From the NCBI RefSeq assembly GCF_017696275.1, contig NZ_JAAORF010000003.1:310001-374000 (forward strand): a stretch of 64,000 nucleotides of DNA, written 5' to 3'. The notes below the pieces were generated by a model. It saw only the letters and a list, made by a program, of their open reading frames with translations. It did no database searches and was not told the DNA's origin. Source of the DNA: Prochlorococcus marinus XMU1405. Lineage in GTDB: Bacteria > Cyanobacteriota > Cyanobacteriia > PCC-6307 > Cyanobiaceae. A program made the translations under genes and the position numbers. Below, piece after piece: positions 41,418 to 50,528 of the stretch (position 1 is the first letter of the stretch; the number at the start of each line of letters is the position of its first letter).

Positions 41418-41541
41418 GAAAAATACTAACTTATATATAAAATTTACACCAATATGAAAATGAAAATCATTTCTGTTTTCGATTTTAAATATTTATTTTG
41501 TGATTTAAGTGATAAAAACAATATTATTTAGAGAATTAATT

Positions 41542-41590
41542 ACCCCATACCACCCATCACTTTCCTAAATAGAAGCTTTAAATGCATGGA
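41542..41590 (+). repeat. att-like composite repeat, copy F (fragment)
   Basis: CCATACCACCCATCACTTTC and CTAAATAGAAGCTTT, then ATGGATAATC. Left end only; no core or arm repeats follow. Separates the CobW unit from the exported-protein cluster. Confidence 0.5.
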
Positions 41591-41692
41591 TAATCTTAGA
41601 ACTTTTGATCGAAAGTATTTAAATTTATATATTTAATTGCCCTGAAATATTTAATTTCTTATTTTTAGTGAATATTTCTAAAATAATTAGCA

Positions 41693-41887
41693 ATGAATAT
41701 AGATCAATTATTTTGCATTTTTGGAGGCTTTTTTACTTTGTTAGCAGCTAGAAGTGATTGGAATTGGTTTTGGAATCATCCTAAAGCTAAGGGGGTTTTA
41801 TCTTTGTGTAGAGGTAAAAAAGGAGCAAGAATTTTTTATTCAATTTTGGGAATTTTTTTAATAGCTTTAGGAATTAAAGGGTTTTAA
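41693..41887 (+). CDS. Imm17-like small membrane protein, 64 aa
   Basis: Two TM helices (about 3-18 and 47-62) flank WNWFWNHPKAKGVLSLCRGK and KGARIFYSILGIF. The W-N-W/F-x-N-H-x-K-A and ARIFY-x-x-LG stretches match my recollection of Imm17, an immunity-protein family of contact-dependent toxin systems. No toxin gene is evident unless it is the nearby nuclease. Also plausible as a housekeeping membrane peptide. Confidence 0.6.
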   Translation: MNIDQLFCIFGGFFTLLAARSDWNWFWNHPKAKGVLSLCRGKKGARIFYSILGIFLIALGIKGF

Positions 41888-41908
41888 ATTTAATAGTAAA
41901 TTATAAAA

Positions 41909-42202
41909 ATGAGACAAACACCAAATGAAAGAAGAGAGAAATGTAACCCTACCCTAATAGGTATATTTGTTGGAGTTGTCTCGCCTCTTTCATCTTTAAT
42001 TTGGGGCATTAGACAAAGATCATTGAAACTTGCGATATTTCCATATTTATTTGTATTCGTAGCTGGATACTTAATTCTGTCTTTAGGAAGAATAAATCCA
42101 TTAAAACTAGAAATAAAGATTCCATTACAACTTATAGGAGGATACTATTCTTTTGATTTGACAAAAAAAATGAAGGAAGAAGCACTTAAGAAAAAAAAAT
42201 AA
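41909..42202 (+). CDS. membrane protein, 97 aa
   Basis: MRQT-PNERREKCNPTLIGI lead, then two or three hydrophobic segments (about 14-30, 42-60, 70-82) and a Lys-rich tail (TKKMKEEALKKKK). 21 nt after the Imm17-like gene, same strand. No family recognised. Confidence 0.6.
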   Translation: MRQTPNERREKCNPTLIGIFVGVVSPLSSLIWGIRQRSLKLAIFPYLFVFVAGYLILSLGRINPLKLEIKIPLQLIGGYYSFDLTKKMKEEALKKKK

Positions 42203-42332
42203 AATCCTCGATATTGAAATTAAAAAAGACTAATTTTGAATTCAGAAAAAAAATACTGCTGCAGATCTAATTCTGGGTGATGATGATTACAAGATCGATC
42301 ATTAAAGGAACTATTTTTTTATTAATTTATTT

Positions 42333-42743
42333 ATGTTTTATTTAATGAAAGTTATTTTATTAATATCTCTCTCATTATTTTATACTTCAGAAATTCATCC
42401 AAAACTTACAACCACAATCATCATCAATTGCTATGACGGTGATACTTGCACAACTATTGAAGGAGAAAAAATAAGACTTGCATGTATAGATACACCTGAA
42501 TTAAAAGGTAAAAATGCCAATCCTATTGCGGCTAAAGAAGCAAGAGATTTTTTGAATAACTTAGTGACTAATGAAGAGATTTATATTAAGAGAATTGCTA
42601 AAGATAGATACGGAAGGACAGTTGCTGAATTATTTAAAAATGATATTAATGTTCAAGAAATAATTGTTAAAAAAAGATATGGGAAAATTTATAAAAGATA
42701 TGCAGATCAATGTGAATGGACTCAAAAAGAGGGATTAAATTAA
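42333..42743 (+). CDS. exported thermonuclease-like (SNase) protein
   Basis: 136 aa; ATG at 42333 or 42345. Signal peptide to about residue 24, then YDGDTC (34-39), RLACIDTPE (48-56) and KDRYGRTVAEL (90-100). These hold the Arg, Asp and Glu/Arg active-site residues of staphylococcal-type nucleases. It cleaves DNA/RNA with calcium in the periplasm or outside; could scavenge phosphate from nucleic acids or act as a defence/toxin (inference). Confidence 0.87.
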   Translation: MFYLMKVILLISLSLFYTSEIHPKLTTTIIINCYDGDTCTTIEGEKIRLACIDTPELKGKNANPIAAKEARDFLNNLVTNEEIYIKRIAKDRYGRTVAELFKNDINVQEIIVKKRYGKIYKRYADQCEWTQKEGLN

Positions 42744-42746
42744 AAA

Positions 42747-43322
42747 TCATTTACAAAAATTTATAAGGAAATCAATAGTAGATTCTTTTTCATTTCCGAG
42801 CTCAAATGATTTCTTTACCAAATTACAACCATTTTTTTTGTCTCCTAGTTTATGAAGAATAATACCCTTTAGAGCTAGAGAACCAGGATTTGAGGAATCC
42901 AATAATAATGCCTTATTTATGTCCTTTAATGCACCTCTGTACTTCCCAAGAGCGAATTTTGAGAGGCTTCTTCTTGTCCAATATTTTTTAGAGCTTGGAT
43001 ATAACTTTATAGCTTTACTATAATCTCTTATCGCACCTTTATAATCCTTTATTTCATCTTTAAAAACACCTCTATTAAAATATCCATATTTATGGTCTTT
43101 AGGATATATCTCAATATATTTAGTTAAATCATTAATCGCACCTTTATAATCCTTATTTTCGTACTTTTCCATGGCATTATCGAAAATGATGCCTGCCCTT
43201 AAAGAGTCAGACGCATATAATCTCCAATTTGATACTCCATAAAAAAAATTTAAAAGTATCAATAAAGGAAACAAAAATAATTGATATTTTTTTCTCAATT
43301 TTTCTTTTAATAACAAACTCAC
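42747..43322 (-). CDS. exported TPR protein, 191 aa
   Basis: N-terminal membrane anchor or signal (LLILLNFFYGVSNWRLY). Then about four tetratricopeptide repeats: YENKDYKGAINDLTKYIEIY (~53-72), DEIKDYKGAIRDYSKAIKLY, FALGKYRGALKDINKALLLD and a partial GCNLVKKSFELGN. TPRs mediate protein contacts. Convergent with the SNase gene, 3 nt apart. Confidence 0.82.
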   Translation of the reverse strand: MSLLLKEKLRKKYQLFLFPLLILLNFFYGVSNWRLYASDSLRAGIIFDNAMEKYENKDYKGAINDLTKYIEIYPKDHKYGYFNRGVFKDEIKDYKGAIRDYSKAIKLYPSSKKYWTRRSLSKFALGKYRGALKDINKALLLDSSNPGSLALKGIILHKLGDKKNGCNLVKKSFELGNEKESTIDFLINFCK

Positions 43323-43362
43323 TATAGTGGAATTAAGTAAGGAAAATTAAAGTAAATTCATT

Positions 43363-43830
43363 ATGAAGGGATTTGTATTTTATTCATTCATTCTTATCAA
43401 TATTGCTATAAGTTCTATTACCAATACCTCCATAGCTAAAGAAATCATCAAATTTAGTTGCCAATACGAAGAGAGTAAATATGAAAACAATTGGGGAACT
43501 GGTTGGGATTGGAGACCCTTTCAAAAAGTAGAAGGAGTTATGCTTCCTATTCATGAATTTTCGATAAATACAAAAACAAATAAAGGTGAATATTTAGAAA
43601 AAAGAACTAAAAAAAATAATTTCTTTTTATTAAATAATATTTATCTAGATTCTAAAATCATTTTAATTTCTTTTGAACCGATAATCACAAGACGAGATCC
43701 TTTATGGACTACAAGGGATCAAATAGAAATAAATAGGAATAACCTTACAATAGAAAGATCCAGCTACAGCTATACAGAAACAATAGGGGGGACATTAAGT
43801 GTTTATAGAGGAAAATGTTCGAGACTTTAA
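43363..43830 (+). CDS. exported hypothetical protein, 155 aa
   Basis: Signal peptide (about 1-25, ending SIAKE). The mature part has WGTGWDWRPFQKVEG, a beta-rich middle and a final GTLSVYRGKCSRL; two cysteines (about 33 and 152) could form a disulfide, suiting the periplasm. No family recognised. Divergent from the TPR gene. Confidence 0.65.
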   Translation: MKGFVFYSFILINIAISSITNTSIAKEIIKFSCQYEESKYENNWGTGWDWRPFQKVEGVMLPIHEFSINTKTNKGEYLEKRTKKNNFFLLNNIYLDSKIILISFEPIITRRDPLWTTRDQIEINRNNLTIERSSYSYTETIGGTLSVYRGKCSRL

Positions 43831-43874
43831 ATACTTCATTATTTACTGCTCAAGAGATATTAGATAAGCCTATT

Positions 43875-45614
43875 TTAATTTCTGCAAAATTTCCCAATAA
43901 AACTATCCATTAATTTATTTGCATCATTTCCATAACTCATAAATAATAATCTGTCTCCCTTTAAATTCTTTGCTTTTCTTATATCTATACATGTTCTTTT
44001 ATTTAAAGAACGGTCATAACCAGGAATCATTATATATGTCATTGCTCTATGAAAATAAGCGCTTCTATTTTCTAAATCATACTTAATAGCTATATCAAAG
44101 TTTTTTAAAGCATTTTCAAAATCGTCAAATTCATAAGCTTGAATATATCCGATACCAACATAAGCTTCTGAAAATTTTGGATTAATATCTAAGACTTGCT
44201 TATACAAATCAATTGCCTTATCAAAGTCACCATCAAACTGAAAGACCTTTGCCAATAGATAAAGAGATTCATATGATTTGGGATTTAAAGAAATAGCTTT
44301 TTCTAAATCTTGCTTTAATAAATTAGATTCATAACGCCTACCAAGAAGCTCATAATAAACTTTCTTAGTAAGTAGTTTTGAGCTTAAATTATTTGTTAAA
44401 TCACCCTTTAAGCCCTCTTCAATAGTTTTTCGAGCATTCTCAATTTGATCAATCTGATCATACGAACTTGCCATACTAAGTAAAGCGTCTATATTTTTTT
44501 TCTTATTAACTAAAACACTAATTTTATTTGTTCTTTTAAATTCTTTAATTGCTTTATAGTGATCACCCTTTATTTGAAAAATTAACCCTCTATACAGGGA
44601 AGCATTATCAAAATTTTTATTTATCAAAAGTGCATTTTTAAAATCTTCGAGAGCCATATCAAAATTTTTATCTTTGTAATATGATTGACCCCTTAAAAAA
44701 TAACCATAGTCGGATTTCTGAATATCTAAGGATCTAGTTACATATTTCTCGAGATATGGTTTTTTTGTACGAAATGACTTTATCCTATCAGCCTTAATTA
44801 AGTAATTTATTGCCTCTTCATTTGGCTTACATGGATTCTTATCTTTAAAACATGCAAAGAAAACTTTATCTTTTAAATAGTTTTTTTTAGAAAAATTATT
44901 TTGTGAAGTCTCTGGTAATTGTTTTATAAAATTCAAGGCAACATTACTCGAAATTGCAAAATTCAAATTTTCTGAGTCATTTAAAGCTGCCGTATTTACT
45001 CCTACAACACAGCCAAATTTGTTGATAAGTGGACCTCCAGAATTCCCCTCATTCAATGCAGCATCAGTTTGAATAAGTTTACCTTCTTCTCTAAAACTAC
45101 TTATAATTCCTTTCGTAAATGAGTAACTTAATCCCTTCGGTGAGCCAATAGCAATCACATCAGAACCAATTTTAGGGGGTCTTTTTTCAAAACCAAAAGC
45201 TTTTCCAAATTTTCCATTTACAGAAATTATTGCTAAATCATTAATATTACTTACACCCATACCATCAATTTCAACTCTTCCTATTTGCTCTGATCCATCA
45301 CTCAAATTTATAAGTACCTTTTCCTCTCCATTTAATACATGACTATTTGTAAGAATAAAGGTTTTATTTTTTTTATATCCAATAATAAAGCCACTCCCAA
45401 ATCCTTCGTCAGTAGAGACGATAACAGTACCTTTTTTCATATTTGAAATAAATCTATCAGAATTAAAATCTTGTTTCTTACAATTATTTGGAAATTGATC
45501 AAAAAGTTGGAATGCCAATACATCATTTTTAGGCAACATCAAAATCCCTAAAAAAATATTTAAGATAAATAGATTCTTAAAAATCGATATTCTTTTTAAG
45601 GAAAAGTTTTTCAA
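43875..45614 (-). CDS. exported trypsin-like protease with TPR domain
   Basis: 579 aa. TM/signal to about 35. Serine-protease domain with His92 (LTNSHVLNG), Asp126 (INDLAIISV) and Ser192 (NEGNSGGPLIN), an HtrA-like triad. No PDZ domain; instead residues ~290-560 hold at least five TPRs (YKDKNFDMALEDFKNALLIN; FDKAIDLYKQVLDINPKFSE). By family, an envelope protein-quality-control or processing protease whose TPRs may recruit substrates. Starts 2 nt after the stop of the upstream TPR-like gene, so one operon. Confidence 0.85.
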   Translation of the reverse strand: MKNFSLKRISIFKNLFILNIFLGILMLPKNDVLAFQLFDQFPNNCKKQDFNSDRFISNMKKGTVIVSTDEGFGSGFIIGYKKNKTFILTNSHVLNGEEKVLINLSDGSEQIGRVEIDGMGVSNINDLAIISVNGKFGKAFGFEKRPPKIGSDVIAIGSPKGLSYSFTKGIISSFREEGKLIQTDAALNEGNSGGPLINKFGCVVGVNTAALNDSENLNFAISSNVALNFIKQLPETSQNNFSKKNYLKDKVFFACFKDKNPCKPNEEAINYLIKADRIKSFRTKKPYLEKYVTRSLDIQKSDYGYFLRGQSYYKDKNFDMALEDFKNALLINKNFDNASLYRGLIFQIKGDHYKAIKEFKRTNKISVLVNKKKNIDALLSMASSYDQIDQIENARKTIEEGLKGDLTNNLSSKLLTKKVYYELLGRRYESNLLKQDLEKAISLNPKSYESLYLLAKVFQFDGDFDKAIDLYKQVLDINPKFSEAYVGIGYIQAYEFDDFENALKNFDIAIKYDLENRSAYFHRAMTYIMIPGYDRSLNKRTCIDIRKAKNLKGDRLLFMSYGNDANKLMDSFIGKFCRN

Positions 45615-45616
45615 AT

Positions 45617-46762
45617 TTATGATTCTTTACAAGCTGCTTTTTTGAAGCTTTCCATAAATTTATAATTAAGCTCCATAGCTTTAGTCAAATTTTTGCATGC
45701 TTCTTTTACAGATGATTTTGTATTAATAAATAATTGCGAAGAACCCTTTAAGTAATATGCTTTTCCAAGATCACCATCAGGATTTTTAATATATCTTTCA
45801 ATATCAGCAAGATTCTGATTAAGTACTGCAATATTTTTATCTTCACTTAACATATACCGAGTAAAACCATGATCAGCCCTTTGAAGAAAAATACCTGCAT
45901 ATTTTTTCTGAAGTTTTGGACTATTCAACATCTCCACAGCCTTATTTGCATATTCATATGCTTCATCAATATTGAAAAAAGGATTTTCTATACCACCAGC
46001 TAAATTCATATAGCTTTTATCAAAAGCTAACAATGCAAGCGATAATAATCTTGAACTATAAAAAGGAACTTCATTAGGATAAATTTCTTCTTCCCACTCA
46101 TCAAAAGCATTTATAGAAATATTTAATAAAGTTATATATTTTCTGAATATATCTTGCCATGTATCTTGTGGTACTTTCCCTCTTAGACGTGCTGCTCTTT
46201 GCGACATGACAGAAAGATTATAGGCATATGTTGGGGGTTCTTCGTTACCTATCTTTTTACAATTTGCTTTTTTTACCCAATCGTCGTTGAACATAAGTGT
46301 CTTTTTTAGCTCTAAAGTGTTCAAATCTAATGTATGAGTTCCATCGTTTAACAACATTCTTTTACTTGATCCAGGCAACACAACTGGAATGGAAGGTCTC
46401 ATAATTAATTTATTTCCTACTTGAGTAAACTTTTGTGGATTTATTTTTTTTCTATAAAGGATATTCTCTATAGAATCTTCAAAGTCTTTGGCAGTATATT
46501 CGCGATCATCGTAAATTGAACCACTGGCAAATTTATCAAAAATTCTTACTTCAGAGACTTTATTTTTAGAGTCAAAATTTATTTCATAAATTTGCTGATT
46601 ATCTGAACTTGGGAAAGTTGCAAAATTCTTTTTCTCTTTTAGGGATACTGGTAAAGTTTTACATAATACTCTTAACTTATTTTCTTTAGCTAATAATGAT
46701 TCAGGAAAAAATAAACCAACTAAGCTTAATAAAATAAAAACTAGGTAAGTTAATTTTTTCAT
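45617..46762 (-). CDS. exported protein with C-terminal TPR-like region, 381 aa
   Basis: Signal peptide (about 1-25, ending LLAKE). Residues 30-170 are beta-rich and unrecognised. From about 250 helical repeats (FNIDEAYEYANKAVEML; KEACKNLTKAMELN) resemble TPRs. Three cysteines. Cotranscribed with the protease, so probably its partner, inhibitor or substrate (inference). Confidence 0.7.
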   Translation of the reverse strand: MKKLTYLVFILLSLVGLFFPESLLAKENKLRVLCKTLPVSLKEKKNFATFPSSDNQQIYEINFDSKNKVSEVRIFDKFASGSIYDDREYTAKDFEDSIENILYRKKINPQKFTQVGNKLIMRPSIPVVLPGSSKRMLLNDGTHTLDLNTLELKKTLMFNDDWVKKANCKKIGNEEPPTYAYNLSVMSQRAARLRGKVPQDTWQDIFRKYITLLNISINAFDEWEEEIYPNEVPFYSSRLLSLALLAFDKSYMNLAGGIENPFFNIDEAYEYANKAVEMLNSPKLQKKYAGIFLQRADHGFTRYMLSEDKNIAVLNQNLADIERYIKNPDGDLGKAYYLKGSSQLFINTKSSVKEACKNLTKAMELNYKFMESFKKAACKES

Positions 46763-46851
46763 AAATTAGATTGAAAATTGTATTATGGACTTAAATTTAT
46801 AATAAATTTGCAAAACTTTTTTGAATTTATATTTATCAAAAGTTCATATTT

Positions 46852-47265
46852 ATGATAAAAATTATCAAAATTTTTAAGGTTTGTTTTATAGGCATATTTT
46901 TTCTTCAAGTGCCTTCTTATGCTGATTGGCAATTAATAGCTGAAAATGATTTAGGCATTAAGTATTTTTTTGATTCAGAATATGTCTCTAAAAAGGGCGA
47001 TATATTAATTTATCAAGTTTTAGAAAATCATAAAGTCAAAACACCAGGAGGCTATTTAACTGTGCTTTTAGATATGCAAGGTAATTGTGATAAGTTTTCA
47101 ATTAAATGGGACAAAGGTGAATTTTCTGAGAAACCCTTTGATTTTGAATTGGATTGGATAAAAGAGCCAAAATTACTTTATGTAAGAAATCCAGAATGGG
47201 AATATCCTGATTATGATTCACCTTGGGGGAAAGCATTAAAAAAAGCTTGCGATCTTAAATTATAA
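46852..47265 (+). CDS. exported protein, surface-adhesin-E-like, 137 aa
   Basis: Signal peptide (about 1-24, ending SYADW). The mature part DWQLIAENDLGIKYFFDSEY with a central Cys (QGNCDKF) and C-terminal KKACDLKL resembles the small beta domain of the surface-adhesin protein E group (W-x-x-I-x, YYD, conserved Cys pair). Divergent from the TPR gene; probably periplasmic. Confidence 0.55.
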   Translation: MIKIIKIFKVCFIGIFFLQVPSYADWQLIAENDLGIKYFFDSEYVSKKGDILIYQVLENHKVKTPGGYLTVLLDMQGNCDKFSIKWDKGEFSEKPFDFELDWIKEPKLLYVRNPEWEYPDYDSPWGKALKKACDLKL

Positions 47266-47280
47266 ATTTATAAAAAACAT

Positions 47281-48387
47281 TTATGCAGCTAAATTTCTGA
47301 AACGCCCAAATTGTGGTTCAAATAACATTTTGACAGTCCCAACAGGACCATTTCTATGTGTAGTGACTATTAATTCTGCTATACCCCTATCCTCTGTATC
47401 TGGATCATAATATTCATCTCTATAAAGCATTACAATAATATCTCCATAATCTTCAAGCACATCAGAATCTCTTAGGTCAGATAACATTGGTCTGCAATTT
47501 TCTCTTTCTTCAACTCCTCGCGATATAGGTCCAGTAATTAAAACAGGGACGTTAAGCTCTTTTGCTAGATTCTTTAGCTCTTTAATATTTTTTTCTAATT
47601 GAGCTTGATGATCATCCTTGTTTGAATGCTCCATCAATTGATAAGAATCAATTACTATTAGCCCTAAATTTTTCTCATCATTGGTCAAAGATATCTTCCT
47701 ACATCTATTTTTTATTTCATCAATTGAGATGGCTTTTTTGTCCTCTAAATATATTGGAAGAGCTTCAAGTTTTGTATTCTTTTCATGAACTAGTTCCCAC
47801 TCCTCAGAAGTAAATCTTCCTGTTCTTATTCGACCAATTTCTATACCAACCTCCATACCTAATAACCTGTATGCCAATTCTTCTTTACTCAAATCAAAAC
47901 CAAAGAAACAAACTGGAAGATTTTGACTTGCAATATTTCTGGCTAATTGCAAAGCTAAAGAAGTTTTACCCATAGATGGGCGTCCTGCAAAAGCGATCAA
48001 ATCTCCTCTTCTTAAACCTTGAGTCATCGCATCTAAATCATAGAAAGAAGTTGTTATACCAGCCGAAGAATTTCCTAATGCAATATTCTCAATTTCAGTA
48101 AAGTTTCTTTTAAGAAGATATTTTAAACTTGTAAAATCACAAATCTCTTCTGAATTTTTAATAGATTCCTGAGTTTGACTAGATTCGGATTTATCAGTTA
48201 AGTCTCTTAGCTTTTGAATATATTTAACTTCAATTAATTTCGCCTTACTAATTTCAATTCCTAGTTTTAATGATATTTCCTTAAGAGTAAGAGGTTCTTC
48301 GTCATCAATTCCAAACCTCAATTTCACTATTTCTTTCTCTTCTTTAGATAAACTTTCAAACCAAGTAGCTAAATCTTTTTTATCCAT
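47281..48387 (-). CDS. sigma-70 region-4-like domain fused to DnaB-type helicase core
   Basis: 368 aa. Residues ~9-62 (LSKEEKEIVKLRFGIDDEEP, LTLKEISLKLGIEISKAKLI) read as sigma-70 region 4. Residues ~112-365 are a DnaB/RecA-like ATPase: Walker A GRPSMGKTS (135-143), Walker B LIVIDSYQ (243-250), GPISRGVEER (286-295), and THRNGPVGTVKMLFEPQFGR near the end. The usual DnaB N-terminal hexamer/primase domain is absent. So not the replicative helicase; perhaps a DNA-loading ATPase guided by a promoter-like HTH. Divergent (58 nt) from another region-4-like gene. Confidence 0.8.
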   Translation of the reverse strand: MDKKDLATWFESLSKEEKEIVKLRFGIDDEEPLTLKEISLKLGIEISKAKLIEVKYIQKLRDLTDKSESSQTQESIKNSEEICDFTSLKYLLKRNFTEIENIALGNSSAGITTSFYDLDAMTQGLRRGDLIAFAGRPSMGKTSLALQLARNIASQNLPVCFFGFDLSKEELAYRLLGMEVGIEIGRIRTGRFTSEEWELVHEKNTKLEALPIYLEDKKAISIDEIKNRCRKISLTNDEKNLGLIVIDSYQLMEHSNKDDHQAQLEKNIKELKNLAKELNVPVLITGPISRGVEERENCRPMLSDLRDSDVLEDYGDIIVMLYRDEYYDPDTEDRGIAELIVTTHRNGPVGTVKMLFEPQFGRFRNLAA

Positions 48388-48445
48388 TATTATTAAAATC
48401 TGTTTTACTTTTATAATTGACTTCTAGAAAAAAACAATAGCAATT

Positions 48446-48601
48446 ATGAAAAATTATATTATTTCGGGACAAGTTGATACTTACAGAATAAAAATAAATT
48501 TATTTGCTTCATCTCCCAGTAGTGCGATAAATGTCTTTAAAAATAAATATCCAAATGCAGAAGATGTTTATGTGATACAAGATTTATTCAAAGGTAAATA
48601 A
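48446..48601 (+). CDS. small hypothetical protein, 51 aa
   Basis: MKNYIISGQVDTYRIKINLF, then ASSPSSAINVFKNKYPNAED and VYVIQDLFKGK. The layout beta-beta-helix-beta (strand, SAINVFKNKYP helix, VYVIQ strand) resembles small ferredoxin-like modulating domains. Next gene begins 1 nt after its stop. Confidence 0.6.
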   Translation: MKNYIISGQVDTYRIKINLFASSPSSAINVFKNKYPNAEDVYVIQDLFKGK

Positions 48602-48602
48602 A

Positions 48603-49025
48603 ATGGAAGATAATAGAGTTGTTCCAATCAACAAGAATAAAGAACCAGAAATTGATACTTTAGGATTTATGTCTAAGACAATAGATTCTTTTCCTGTTCT
48701 TGAAAGAGATATTCTCCGATTAAGTTTAGGTCTAAGAGAACCTTATGAAATTATGCATTCATGCGATGAGATAGCTGAAATATTAAATAAGCCAAAAGAA
48801 CTAATTGATAAAAACTGGGCAACTGGAATGAAAAGATTAGGAGATATTGTTCAGGAAGAGAAATCAAAACAGGAAAATGAGGATGCTTATTCCGAAATCA
48901 GATTGCAAATGCATAATCACTTAATTAAAAAACTTCGTTCACTTAAGGAAGAGTGGAAACTGGATAATATTAGCCAAGTCACAGAAAGAATTATTCTTGC
49001 TTTTTTCAAGAATGATCTTAATTAA
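48603..49025 (+). CDS. helix-turn-helix (sigma region-4-like) protein, 140 aa
   Basis: FPVLERDILRLSLGLREPYE, then CDEIAEILNKPKELIDKNWA and TGMKRLGDIVQEE (about 31-85) follow the region-4 pattern, weaker than in 47281-48387. The C-terminal half (EIRLQMHNHLIKKLRSLKEE) is helical. Probably DNA-binding. In a two-gene unit with 48446-48601. Confidence 0.6.
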   Translation: MEDNRVVPINKNKEPEIDTLGFMSKTIDSFPVLERDILRLSLGLREPYEIMHSCDEIAEILNKPKELIDKNWATGMKRLGDIVQEEKSKQENEDAYSEIRLQMHNHLIKKLRSLKEEWKLDNISQVTERIILAFFKNDLN

Positions 49026-49559
49026 ATATATTGGTTAACCGATGACGGGCTAATAGAGGGAAGAGTAATGACGGGCTTATAAGGAGAAAGGACGACCGAT
49101 CACGCCCTATAAGGGAAAAGAGAATAAATACAACAAGTCTTCTTTAACACAACAAGCTTAGCTGGATATCCCTGAAAGATATCACTTCTAACTACTACCA
49201 CTAACTCTTTAACTAGGCTAAAAAAGTAATACTATAACAAGGTTTTGAACGGTAGTCCCCTTATAAGGGGAAGGTGAATGGAATCTCCCTTTAAAGTACT
49301 GTTAGCTGGATATCACTTTTTGATATCACTTCTAACTACTACCACCAACTACTTTAACTATATATATCAGTGATATAAGTGATATACATGTTATTAGGAG
49401 AGGTAAGAAGAGAAGAGTAAGAGAATACATCTTTTTAATAAACCCAATATTTTTGAAAGAAATTTGTGAATTGATATAAATACAAATAAGTAAGGGAATG
49501 CCCCCCGTACCACCCCATCGAAAACCACTCATAGATAACTAACAATTAACAATTAAAAA
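49026..49559. repeat. repeat-rich, GC-shifted intergenic block
   Basis: A ~57-nt direct repeat (49158-49214 and 49302-49360) starts TTAGCTGGATATC and contains CACTTCTAACTACTACCAC. Each copy carries two GATATC palindromes able to pair. CCCCTTATAAGGGG (49257-49270) is a perfect 14-bp palindrome; related sequences are GGGCTTATAAGG (~49073) and GCCCTATAAGGG (~49108). GACGGGCT occurs twice near 49045-49075. A minus-strand frame (49332-49532) is not trusted. Confidence 0.6.
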
Positions 49560-49880
49560 ATGAACAGAATACAAGAAATTAAGGATGCCCATCCTTGGCT
49601 TTCCTACGACGAAGTAGTGAAGGTTCTCCTCTATCATCATCAGGGTTCAATGTGGATACAGAACCTTAAGAGTGACACGCTTGAGAGGTCGATGGAAGGG
49701 TTCACAAAGCTTTTTAAATCTAAGACTAAGAAAGCCCTTAAACCCTTTGTAGAGTACGTTATAGGCGCGTACTACAACGGTTTAGATGAGCATGGCAATC
49801 AGATAGAAGAATCAAGTAGAGAAGAGACTTTCGAGCAGAGATGGAACAGGGCAAGAGCTATCCTTCTGAAGAGCAAATAA
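49560..49880 (+). CDS. phage-like hypothetical protein, 106 aa
   Basis: MNRIQEIKDAHPWLSYDEVV, then VLLYHHQGSMWIQNLKSDTL and FVEYVIGAYYNGLDEHGNQI. Soluble and helical. Codon choice is visibly more GC-rich (CTC, GGC, GTG, GAC, GCG) than neighbours, a sign of recent transfer. No family recognised; short proteins of this style are common in cyanophages and mobile islands. Confidence 0.65.
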   Translation: MNRIQEIKDAHPWLSYDEVVKVLLYHHQGSMWIQNLKSDTLERSMEGFTKLFKSKTKKALKPFVEYVIGAYYNGLDEHGNQIEESSREETFEQRWNRARAILLKSK

Positions 49881-49941
49881 ACTTGTTGACTCCTACCCTT
49901 TTCAGCTGCTATAAATATTAGTACACTTGTACTATATTACT

Positions 49942-50169
49942 ATGGAGGACTGGCAGGAATGGGGTTATCTAGAGGACGAAATATTAGTAAGAAAACGACG
50001 GAAGATTTGTATTACTTGCAATCACTTCAGGTACAGCACGACAAGTTCTTGTGTCACCATCCTTACTTGTCCCTTTCATCAAAAGCTTATTCCTCAAGGT
50101 GATCATCTAATTAAAGGATGTAGATACTGGAGAGAGAACAGTAGGATATTTGCGCCTGAAGCTGCTTAA
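49942..50169 (+). CDS. zinc-ribbon-like small protein, 75 aa
   Basis: ATG at 49942 (MEDWQEWGYLEDEILVRKRR). CITCNHFRY (C-x2-C), then SCVTILTCPFHQKLIPQGD and KGCRYWREN: five cysteines plus histidines in a treble-clef or ribbon-like arrangement. Same GC-shifted style as its neighbour; probably came in with it. Confidence 0.65.
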   Translation: MEDWQEWGYLEDEILVRKRRKICITCNHFRYSTTSSCVTILTCPFHQKLIPQGDHLIKGCRYWRENSRIFAPEAA

Positions 50170-50440
50170 GCTTTGGGTGCGTGGTTCTTTATAGAGAGCA
50201 TTCAACCTAGTCTATGACTGGGTTTTACATGCCTAGCTGGTATTGATTTGACAATCTGCTGGTATAAAAGACTCTCTCATTCCCTGAAAAGCATTGTAAA
50301 TACTACGTTTATTGATTTCAAAAAAAGTTTACTTCAAGCGATCTGTTTCTATATTTTTCTAAACTTTCTTAGACCAAATATCTTCGATAAACTAAACAAA
50401 ATGCTTTGGATTTGACTAACTTTCGAAAAAGTTAACAAAA
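50170..50440. other. intergenic before EVE gene
   Basis: No gene. Inverted pieces GAGAG (50200) and CTCTC (50273) and an internal CTAGCTGGTATTGA / CTGCTGGTATAAA similarity are visible. Part of the accessory block between the GC-shifted genes and the att-like site. Confidence 0.35.
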
Positions 50441-50528
50441 TACCATACCAGCACCATACCAGCAGCACTATTTCCCGCAAATTATAGACCATGACTGAAC
50501 CTAACTACTGGCTAATGAAAAGTGAGCC
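50441..50528 (+). repeat. presumed native target site at EVE gene 5' end (copy G)
   Basis: Two ACCATACCAGC units at 11-nt spacing (50441-50464), 26 nt, then ATGACTGAACCTAACTACTG and GCTAATGAAAAGTGAGCC, the first ~38 nt of the EVE gene. The order arm repeats, gap of about 30 nt, core is the same as in copies B and D, where the core is non-coding and degenerate. Confidence 0.6.

Follow-up and report, generated by a model that had tools for sequence, protein, structure and literature searches.

Why should a helicase of the kind that opens DNA for replication carry, at its front end, a piece of a sigma factor? The question is raised by a gene, P0001, in a stretch of 64,000 nucleotides of the Prochlorococcus marinus XMU1405 genome (the window), whose product of 368 amino acids (aa) joins a sigma-70 region-4 domain to the ATPase core of DnaB and which faces a divergent gene, P0002, that also has a region-4-like segment. 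A first-pass annotation of the window had described this fusion, its coordinates, frame, and length correctly, and it knew of no described system with such an architecture. Neither do we find one: no sigma-4/DnaB fusion, nor any short DnaB in Prochlorococcus, is described in the open-licence literature that we searched, a body of work that leaves most subscription papers outside.

Our answer, to which we would give a probability of roughly 0.45, is that the two genes form an adaptor-guided DnaB-like ATPase switch whose divergent control region is autoregulated. In other words, we take the oddity at this locus as a sign of a whole family of DNA-targeted molecular switches that has yet to be studied, and in what follows, we try to say why and also, why one might disagree.

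A Sigma Domain in the Place of the DnaB N-Terminal Domain

We regard the parts as securely identified. Pfam finds Sigma70_r4 in residues 9–61 (E 4.8e-9, 36 bits against a cut-off of 24.1) and DnaB_C in residues 110–365 (E 9.1e-82); among NCBIfam models, the C-terminal end of the cyanobacterial RpoD/SigA model aligns with residues 3–61 (3.4e-9), and the DnaB model TIGR00665 matches residues 59–367 at 2e-98, with a score of 330.1 bits that lies below its curated cut-off of 385.25 bits. Because the DnaB profile is aligned only from its position 127 onward, the N-terminal domain of DnaB is absent, and sigma region 4 does stand in its place, just as the first-pass annotation had it. A sequence search of the PDB with the fusion retrieved two separate sets of solved chains, one of sigma domain 4 (best E 2.2e-5) and one of DnaB. 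Region 4 spans residues ~3–62 and is followed by a linker, the DnaB linker helix, and the RecA-type ATPase domain; the AlphaFold2 (AF2) model resembles DnaB structures, has region-4 helices at residues 3–12, 15–25, 35–42, and 46–68, and falls below 50 in predicted local distance difference test (pLDDT) score at residues 67–84.

Could such a protein be an artefact of assembly or of frame? This we can rule out, the frame being common to four genomes. The full fusion is present in 4 of 266 genomes of the genus (G000, which is the window's genome, G228, G039, and G106), at 88–100% identity and in each as one open frame of 368 aa; there is no in-frame ATG from codon 2 to codon 120, and GTG or TTG occurs only at codons 21 and 23. 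In pairwise comparisons of the four, omega (the ratio of nonsynonymous to synonymous divergence) is 0.10–0.20 for the DnaB part and 0.11–0.69 for the sigma-4 part, which is noisier because the segment is short, and nonsynonymous divergence (dN) in the linker is 0.14–0.30. The fusion is thus under purifying selection. The source genome (1.67 Mb, three contigs) also encodes a normal DnaB, an open frame of 464 aa that is 55% identical to the fusion over residues 60–367.

Judged by its domains, the fusion is not a sigma factor, because regions 2 and 3 are absent: the sigma models shown by NCBIfam hit only residues 1–65, at their C-terminal ends, and Sigma70_r4 is the sole sigma domain that Pfam matches. 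What, then, is left of region 4? Before the DNA-reading stretch, the fusions are identical to S2_L003, the closest sigma factor of the genome, at 17–21 of 39 positions. Within that stretch (residues of the RERVRQ type, which we take to be those that read the -35 element), they are identical at 0 of 8 and, over the genome's four sigma factors, at 0–1 of 8; the other three sigma factors match S2_L003 at 5–7 of these 8. The alignment shows, that is, that the fused region 4 has lost the residues expected to read -35 DNA, so it may read another sequence or dock on a protein.

A Family of Short DnaBs

The fusion turns out to be one derived member of a larger family of accessory DnaB paralogues without the N-terminal domain, a family that lay beyond the view of the first reading. 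Across the 266 genomes of the genus, these short DnaBs fall into subfamilies A (11 copies, 4 of them fused), B (15), C (14), and D (6), to which are added two divergent copies (G258 and G175) and one broken one (G058); with the broken copy counted, they occupy at least 45 genomes. A survey of the taxonomic family (251 genomes, 16 of them in the genus) found them in at least 18 of the 235 other genomes, all 18 of them 1.0–2.0 Mb in size, in frames of 301–318 aa, and no fusion outside the window's genome was among the matches listed; three larger genomes (G347, G432, and G496, 2.2–2.7 Mb) also showed a second match, beyond those listed. All such counts are lower bounds, because D-type copies were sought only in genomes that had a second match or were otherwise picked, and the E values of these genome searches refer to one genome each.

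In a tree of 89 rows (G187x, G046, and G270 were left out), a branch with support 100/100 splits 23 canonical DnaBs from the short ones; subfamily C clusters with the copies of other genera (100/97), and A, B, and D together with the G258 copy make one group (96/98). The short DnaBs appear to attach among picocyanobacterial DnaBs, a placement that is tentative because the branches are long. This placement disfavors a phage origin, which had been suggested for the fusion. P0001 matches 1,227 of 50,697 phage records, all at less than 60% identity, and the top-ranked match has 44.6% over residues 47–366, against the 55% shared with the genome's own DnaB; eight IMG/VR loci match it at 20–35%. P0002 has no match in the phage records and no relative in IMG/VR, in scans that detect close relatives only. 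Also set aside is a KaiC-type clock protein, another of the early suggestions, with KaiC matching in Pfam at 1.6e-7 vs. 9.1e-82 for DnaB_C.

What has become of the active site in this family? With positions assigned by alignment to 2r6a, the fusion retains Walker A, the Asp of Walker B, and the HRNGP Arg, so that the early description of intact Walker A/B motifs is right in part. Four other features have changed: Asp stands where we would place the catalytic Glu, the Gln of LSQLSR (presumably the gamma-phosphate sensor) is Pro, the Lys of KHRNGP (presumably the finger Lys) is Thr, and the loop RESGSIEQ, which we take to be the one that holds single-stranded DNA (ssDNA), is altered (RDSD). All four are kept in each of 23 canonical cyanobacterial DnaBs. 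Motif counts, from which G058 (160 aa) and G187x (an otherwise normal DnaB truncated at a contig end) are excluded, find Walker A in 48/48 short DnaBs of the genus and 20/20 of other genera and the Walker B Asp likewise, whereas the RESGSIEQ loop, intact in 23/23 canonical DnaBs, is so in 0/48 short DnaBs of the genus; two of the 20 from other genera retain RESGSIEN. Subfamily A has Glu changed to Asp and Gln to Pro in 11/11 and Lys changed to Thr in 6/11, all four fusions among the six. Changes at catalytic, sensor, and ssDNA-loop residues argue against processive translocation, and we would say that the fusion is probably not a processive replicative helicase.

Partners That Change

The region-4-like segment of P0002, which the first-pass annotation had also noticed, is weaker yet real. 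Foldseek listed 50 matches, by their titles all sigma or region-4 entries, with probabilities of 0.94–1.00 and E values of only 0.04–0.21, and a profile built on P0002 and its homologues hits 276 of 300 genomes of the taxonomic family at E ≤ 0.001; almost all of the listed hits lie at positions ~26–85, inside sigma-sized frames, at about 1e-5. The C-terminal segment is probably a ribbon–helix–helix (RHH) domain, to judge from the profiles. It appears related to a family of small RHH-like proteins encoded beside short DnaBs in other genera (hhalign probability 95.3%, E 2.2e-8); NikR was matched only at E 0.045.

Full-length P0002 homologues occur in 14 of the 266 genomes, and 11 of them have a short DnaB less than 3 kb away, which belongs to subfamily A (G000, G228, G250, G218, and G200), B (G039 and G217), or C (G265, G188, G190, and G166). 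The remaining three are in G169 (on the same contig, ~13 kb off), G187 (near a contig end), and G127 (where no short DnaB was found). By a rough hand estimate, chance would give fewer than 0.1 such adjacencies genome-wide and ~1 if both genes were confined to ~130 kb of variable regions.

The partner beside the ATPase is not always the same. C copies in G009, G156, and G131 have a sigma-4-only protein of 80–85 aa within ~2 kb, and a P0002-type or sigma-4-only gene sits in a comparable position before DnaB-C in G265, G188, G166, G156, and G009; G217 has a further Sigma70_r4 protein (E 3.1e-10) between P0002 and its DnaB. G166 reproduces the layout of the window (a sigma-4 open reading frame [ORF], a 215-nt gap with a 51-aa ORF, and P0002) at 86% DNA identity over 832 nt, with its sigma-4 ORF standing alone and stopping at 67 aa and its DnaB a C-type gene downstream of P0002. 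In other genera, an intact RHH-like ORF of 59–80 aa lies 72–84 nt upstream in 11 of 20 short-DnaB loci, and remnants or a broken copy are found at 4 more. Thus, RHH-only, sigma-4-only, and sigma-4 plus RHH proteins are found in comparable positions next to short DnaBs; in the fusion, the sigma-4 domain is joined to the ATPase itself. This swapping of partners speaks for an ATPase working together with a DNA-binding adaptor. As a supporting survey only, a sigma-4 hidden Markov model, built from an ORF set that contained three non-sigma ORFs, was run over the genes of the genus loci, D-type operons included, and found the module genes and a few weak others (E 0.08–0.5).

Two observations on the spacers may be recorded here. 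The 72–84 nt between the RHH-like ORF and the short DnaB are themselves strongly conserved (L212–L218 and L225–L228), and part of this spacer is open in one frame up to the DnaB start at several loci, which could mean an RNA element or a tiny ORF. Between the sigma-4-only gene and DnaB-C in L040 and L120, we noticed by eye an inverted repeat (AAAGTTTC...GAAACTTT).

The Divergent Control Region

P0001 and P0002 diverge, as had been reported, with 215 nt (rather than 216) between their start codons and, missed in the first-pass annotation, a third ORF of 51 aa inside the gap. Homologues of this ORF are found in G228, G200, G166, G106, G146, and G205 and beside other short DnaBs in G187, G190, G202, and G258; elsewhere, there are fragments or stop-bearing copies, and a Pfam scan of the 51 aa gave no match. 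The 58 bp left between it and the fusion are extremely conserved, with 0/58 differences among G000, G228, G106, and G166, genomes in which the adjoining sigma-4 codons differ at 14–41 of 198 nt and the 51-aa ORF differs at 3–35 of 153 nt; the G039 region differs at several positions. A 29-nt core of the region has no second copy in the window with up to three mismatches allowed. Table 1 gives the coordinates.

Table 1. Coordinates of the cassette and its parts in the window
Feature	Position	Strand	Basis or remark
P0001, fusion gene	47281-48387	minus	368 aa
Fusion residues 1-66: sigma-70 region-4 domain, where DnaB would have its N-terminal domain	48190..48387	-	Pfam, NCBIfam, PDB chains, AF2 helices
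Linker, residues 67-85, rapidly evolving	48133..48189	-	pLDDT, dN
DnaB linker helix and RecA-type ATPase domain, residues 86-368	47284..48132	-	DnaB_C, TIGR00665, motif table; stop codon 47281-47283
Walker A motif GRPSMGKTS, residues 135-143	47959..47985	-	Alignments
Divergent control region, 58 bp, between the fusion and the 51-aa ORF	48388..48445		Cross-genome identity
51-aa ORF (MKNYIISGQVDTY...), immediately 5' of P0002	48446..48601	+	Homologues in other genomes
P0002, 140 aa: region-4-like segment (~19-82) and probable RHH segment (83-140)	48603..49025	+	Foldseek, profile, alignment, hhalign
Variable interval, 9.1 kb, holding the cassette, from the 260-aa gene to the EVE-like gene	41418..50490		Spacing across genomes

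What Might the Module Do?

We imagine an accessory Prochlorococcus module that consists of a DnaB paralogue without its N-terminal domain and a small DNA-binding adaptor. The adaptor, or the sigma-4 domain once fused, would position an ATP-binding ring or oligomer of the DnaB type at chosen sites, which could be the cassette's own control region or a site on a protein, such as RNA polymerase. There, the binding of ATP, more than processive unwinding, might act as a switch on transcription or replication, and the divergent cassette might regulate itself. The first-pass annotation had thought of an ATPase recruited by promoter-like DNA; the ATPase and its DNA-binding adaptor survive in our proposal by virtue of the partner swapping, and the promoter-like DNA, with 0–1 of 8 -35-reading residues left, does not. 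Region 4 occurs twice here, once on the ATPase and once in the protein encoded opposite to it, which makes their partnership open to direct tests with small proteins.

A good deal weighs against this switch, and the reader should have it in one place. Thirteen of the 15 B copies are without P0002 in the stretch seen, six C copies (G028, G280, G274, G205, G147, and G291) are without any adaptor there, and the fusions of G039 and G106 and the short A copies of G202 and G146 have no adjacent P0002; such adjacency as there is could come partly from shared insertion places. The RHH assignment has its own troubles: a scan of four partner proteins with Pfam RHH_1 gave scores under the cut-off for two (20.2 and 16.2 vs. 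20.5 bits) and no match for the other two, nothing in the PDB convincingly matches the C-terminus of P0002 itself, and the AF2 monomer of P0002 is all-helical where the RHH strand is expected. With a mean pLDDT of 70, the AF2 model of the fusion is no better than moderate, and a promoter scan of the 58-bp region did no better than shuffles. Finally, the change from Glu to Asp is a conservative one, and a truncated mycobacteriophage DnaB core is reported to have retained helicase activity (PMC4523182).

Perhaps, then, the short DnaB is simply the helicase of a mobile element, with the adaptor as its origin-binding or copy-control protein, much as repF and repA are arranged in RSF1010. A helicase next to a small DNA-binding protein, in a variable location and with a patchy distribution, would fit, as would an integrase-like family (c66, so named from a reading of the sequence) that lies beside G175e and, in fragments, beside G202, and the mycobacteriophage work just cited suggests that a DnaB reduced to its RecA core can unwind DNA. 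We hold this to be unlikely, if well worth keeping in mind: there is no tRNA in the 64-kb window, no integrase or primase was among 25 of the 74 Pfam families matched in the neighbors of short DnaBs (114 of 116 neighboring proteins were scanned), none of the 48 short DnaBs of the genus has kept the ssDNA loop unaltered, and subfamily A has substitutions at catalytic and sensor positions. Is it instead a toxin–antitoxin-like or defense module, in which a short DnaB, probably host derived, poisons or blocks the replicative ring of host or phage and the RHH or sigma-4 protein is its antidote or repressor? The apparent operons with an upstream RHH-like gene in 11/20 loci of other genera have that look, decayed copies exist (a G270 short DnaB with a stop and a G379 RHH with a stop), there are some defense-model hits among the neighbors, and with linker helix and Walker residues kept, ring assembly is possible. 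We nonetheless find the idea quite improbable. Many short DnaBs of the genus have no nearby adaptor; PADLOC on the 114 neighbors gave one model pair, RT-Protease_XI, in 5 proteins (presumably through their trypsin-like domain) and otherwise single hits (among 25 of 27 families), one of them a strong Type IIG restriction enzyme; and the usual toxins are smaller than a short DnaB, with toxin–antitoxin spacers usually shorter than 72–84 nt.

The loss of the reading residues (0/8), with the part before them kept, is what one might expect if the sigma-4 domain bound the beta-flap of RNA polymerase without reading DNA and so brought a DnaB-like ring to transcription complexes. The T4 protein gp33 offers a precedent, for it is described as clamping the flap tip helix as sigma-4 does while tethering a sliding clamp; the same source calls gp33 structurally unrelated to sigma-4 (PMC7892883), and the fused domain may simply read another DNA sequence. 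We rate this docking as rather improbable. More of a long shot is its fullest version, in which the fusion would be a DnaB-derived ATPase ring tethered to RNA polymerase by a sigma-derived flap-docking domain, a regulatory or coupling factor between replication-type and transcription machinery that arose in Prochlorococcus from the host's DnaB when the primase-binding domain was swapped for sigma region 4. Docking of the sigma-4 domain on RNA polymerase, if real, would link a helicase-type ring to transcription by a new route. To the view that all of this is a decaying relic without function, we give next to no credence: the altered catalytic residues and the broken copies in some genomes speak for decay, and it is disfavored because of the signal of selection, with omega at 0.10–0.20 in the DnaB part, frames intact in four genomes, and an invariant control region.

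Taken together, the family shows a replicative helicase being made accessory in a highly streamlined phototroph: its N-terminal domain dropped, its ssDNA and catalytic residues drifting, its adaptors exchanged and finally, fused.

Known Systems That It Resembles

The fusion is homologous to bacterial DnaB over residues ~59–367, with linker helix, Walker A/B, and HRNGP Arg present, and it differs from it in lacking the N-terminal domain, in the changed catalytic Glu, sensor Gln, finger Lys, and RESG loop, and in being encoded apart from the genome's normal DnaB. With cyanobacterial sigma-70 region 4, it shares the fold and, ahead of the reading stretch, roughly every second residue of the closest sigma factor of the genome; unlike a sigma factor, it has no regions 2–3, its reading stretch is replaced, and it is joined to an ATPase. 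In RSF1010 (repF-repA, with the products RepF, RepA, and RepC), a small DNA-binding repressor is encoded upstream of a hexameric helicase without the N-terminal domain, which resembles our module, except that no initiator or mobilization genes are recognized here and the ssDNA loop is changed.

The mycobacteriophage RecA-core DnaBs also have the ATPase domain without the N-terminal domain, but they are phage proteins, described as a distinct clade, and the abstract mentions no sigma-4 or RHH partner (PMC4523182). T4 gp33–gp45 lends the idea of a flap-binding protein that tethers a ring on DNA, but there is no homology, gp45 as described there is a clamp and not an ATPase, and flap docking by the fusion is putative (PMC7892883). 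Tycheposons, flexible elements reported in the same host group (PMC10872708), have a bordering tRNA gene that we do not find in the 64-kb window, which disfavors a tycheposon here; no tyrosine recombinase was recognized by eye among the window's ORFs, with no scan aimed at it.

The Neighborhood of the Cassette

The cassette sits in an interval that varies from genome to genome. Its right border, an EVE-like gene (so named by eye), is present in 16/16 other genomes searched, and its left border, a gene of 260 aa, is present in 5/16; the two are separated by 275 bp in G120, 9.1 kb in G000, 13.2 kb in G101, and 13.5 kb in G050 and are far apart in G039 and G119. Within ~9 kb of the EVE-like gene are found fusions (G000, G228, and G039), a short A copy (G200), and a C-type copy (G009), and the G106 fusion is on another contig than that gene. 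A second recurrent place is the tmRNA gene, a few kilobases from which lie eight B-type short DnaBs (L041, L045, L124, L125, L127, L129, L130, and L131).

The D-type copies belong to operons (L141:2772-14000; also L139, L140, L143, L144, and in part, L210) that hold a short DnaB, proteins of ~397 and ~435 aa without clear Pfam family, a Zn-peptidase-like protein, and a pair of large TPR-CHAT proteins; the Pfam assignments come from L141 alone. In G354, from another genus, a short DnaB is followed by two proteins that resemble D-type ones by eye.

TPR proteins (28/114) and trypsin-like proteases (5/114) were found by Pfam among the scanned neighbors. The window itself has, at 43875-45614, a trypsin-like protease with TPRs and an N-terminus resembling a signal peptide, with similar genes at several short-DnaB loci. 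Downstream of P0002, we saw by eye a repeated stretch (TTAGCTGGATATC...GATATCACTTCTAACTACTACCAC) at 49150-49350. At 42333-42743, there is, again by eye, a secreted thermonuclease-like protein, whose family (c53) recurs near short DnaBs in G265 and G166, with similar-looking proteins in G328 and G316.

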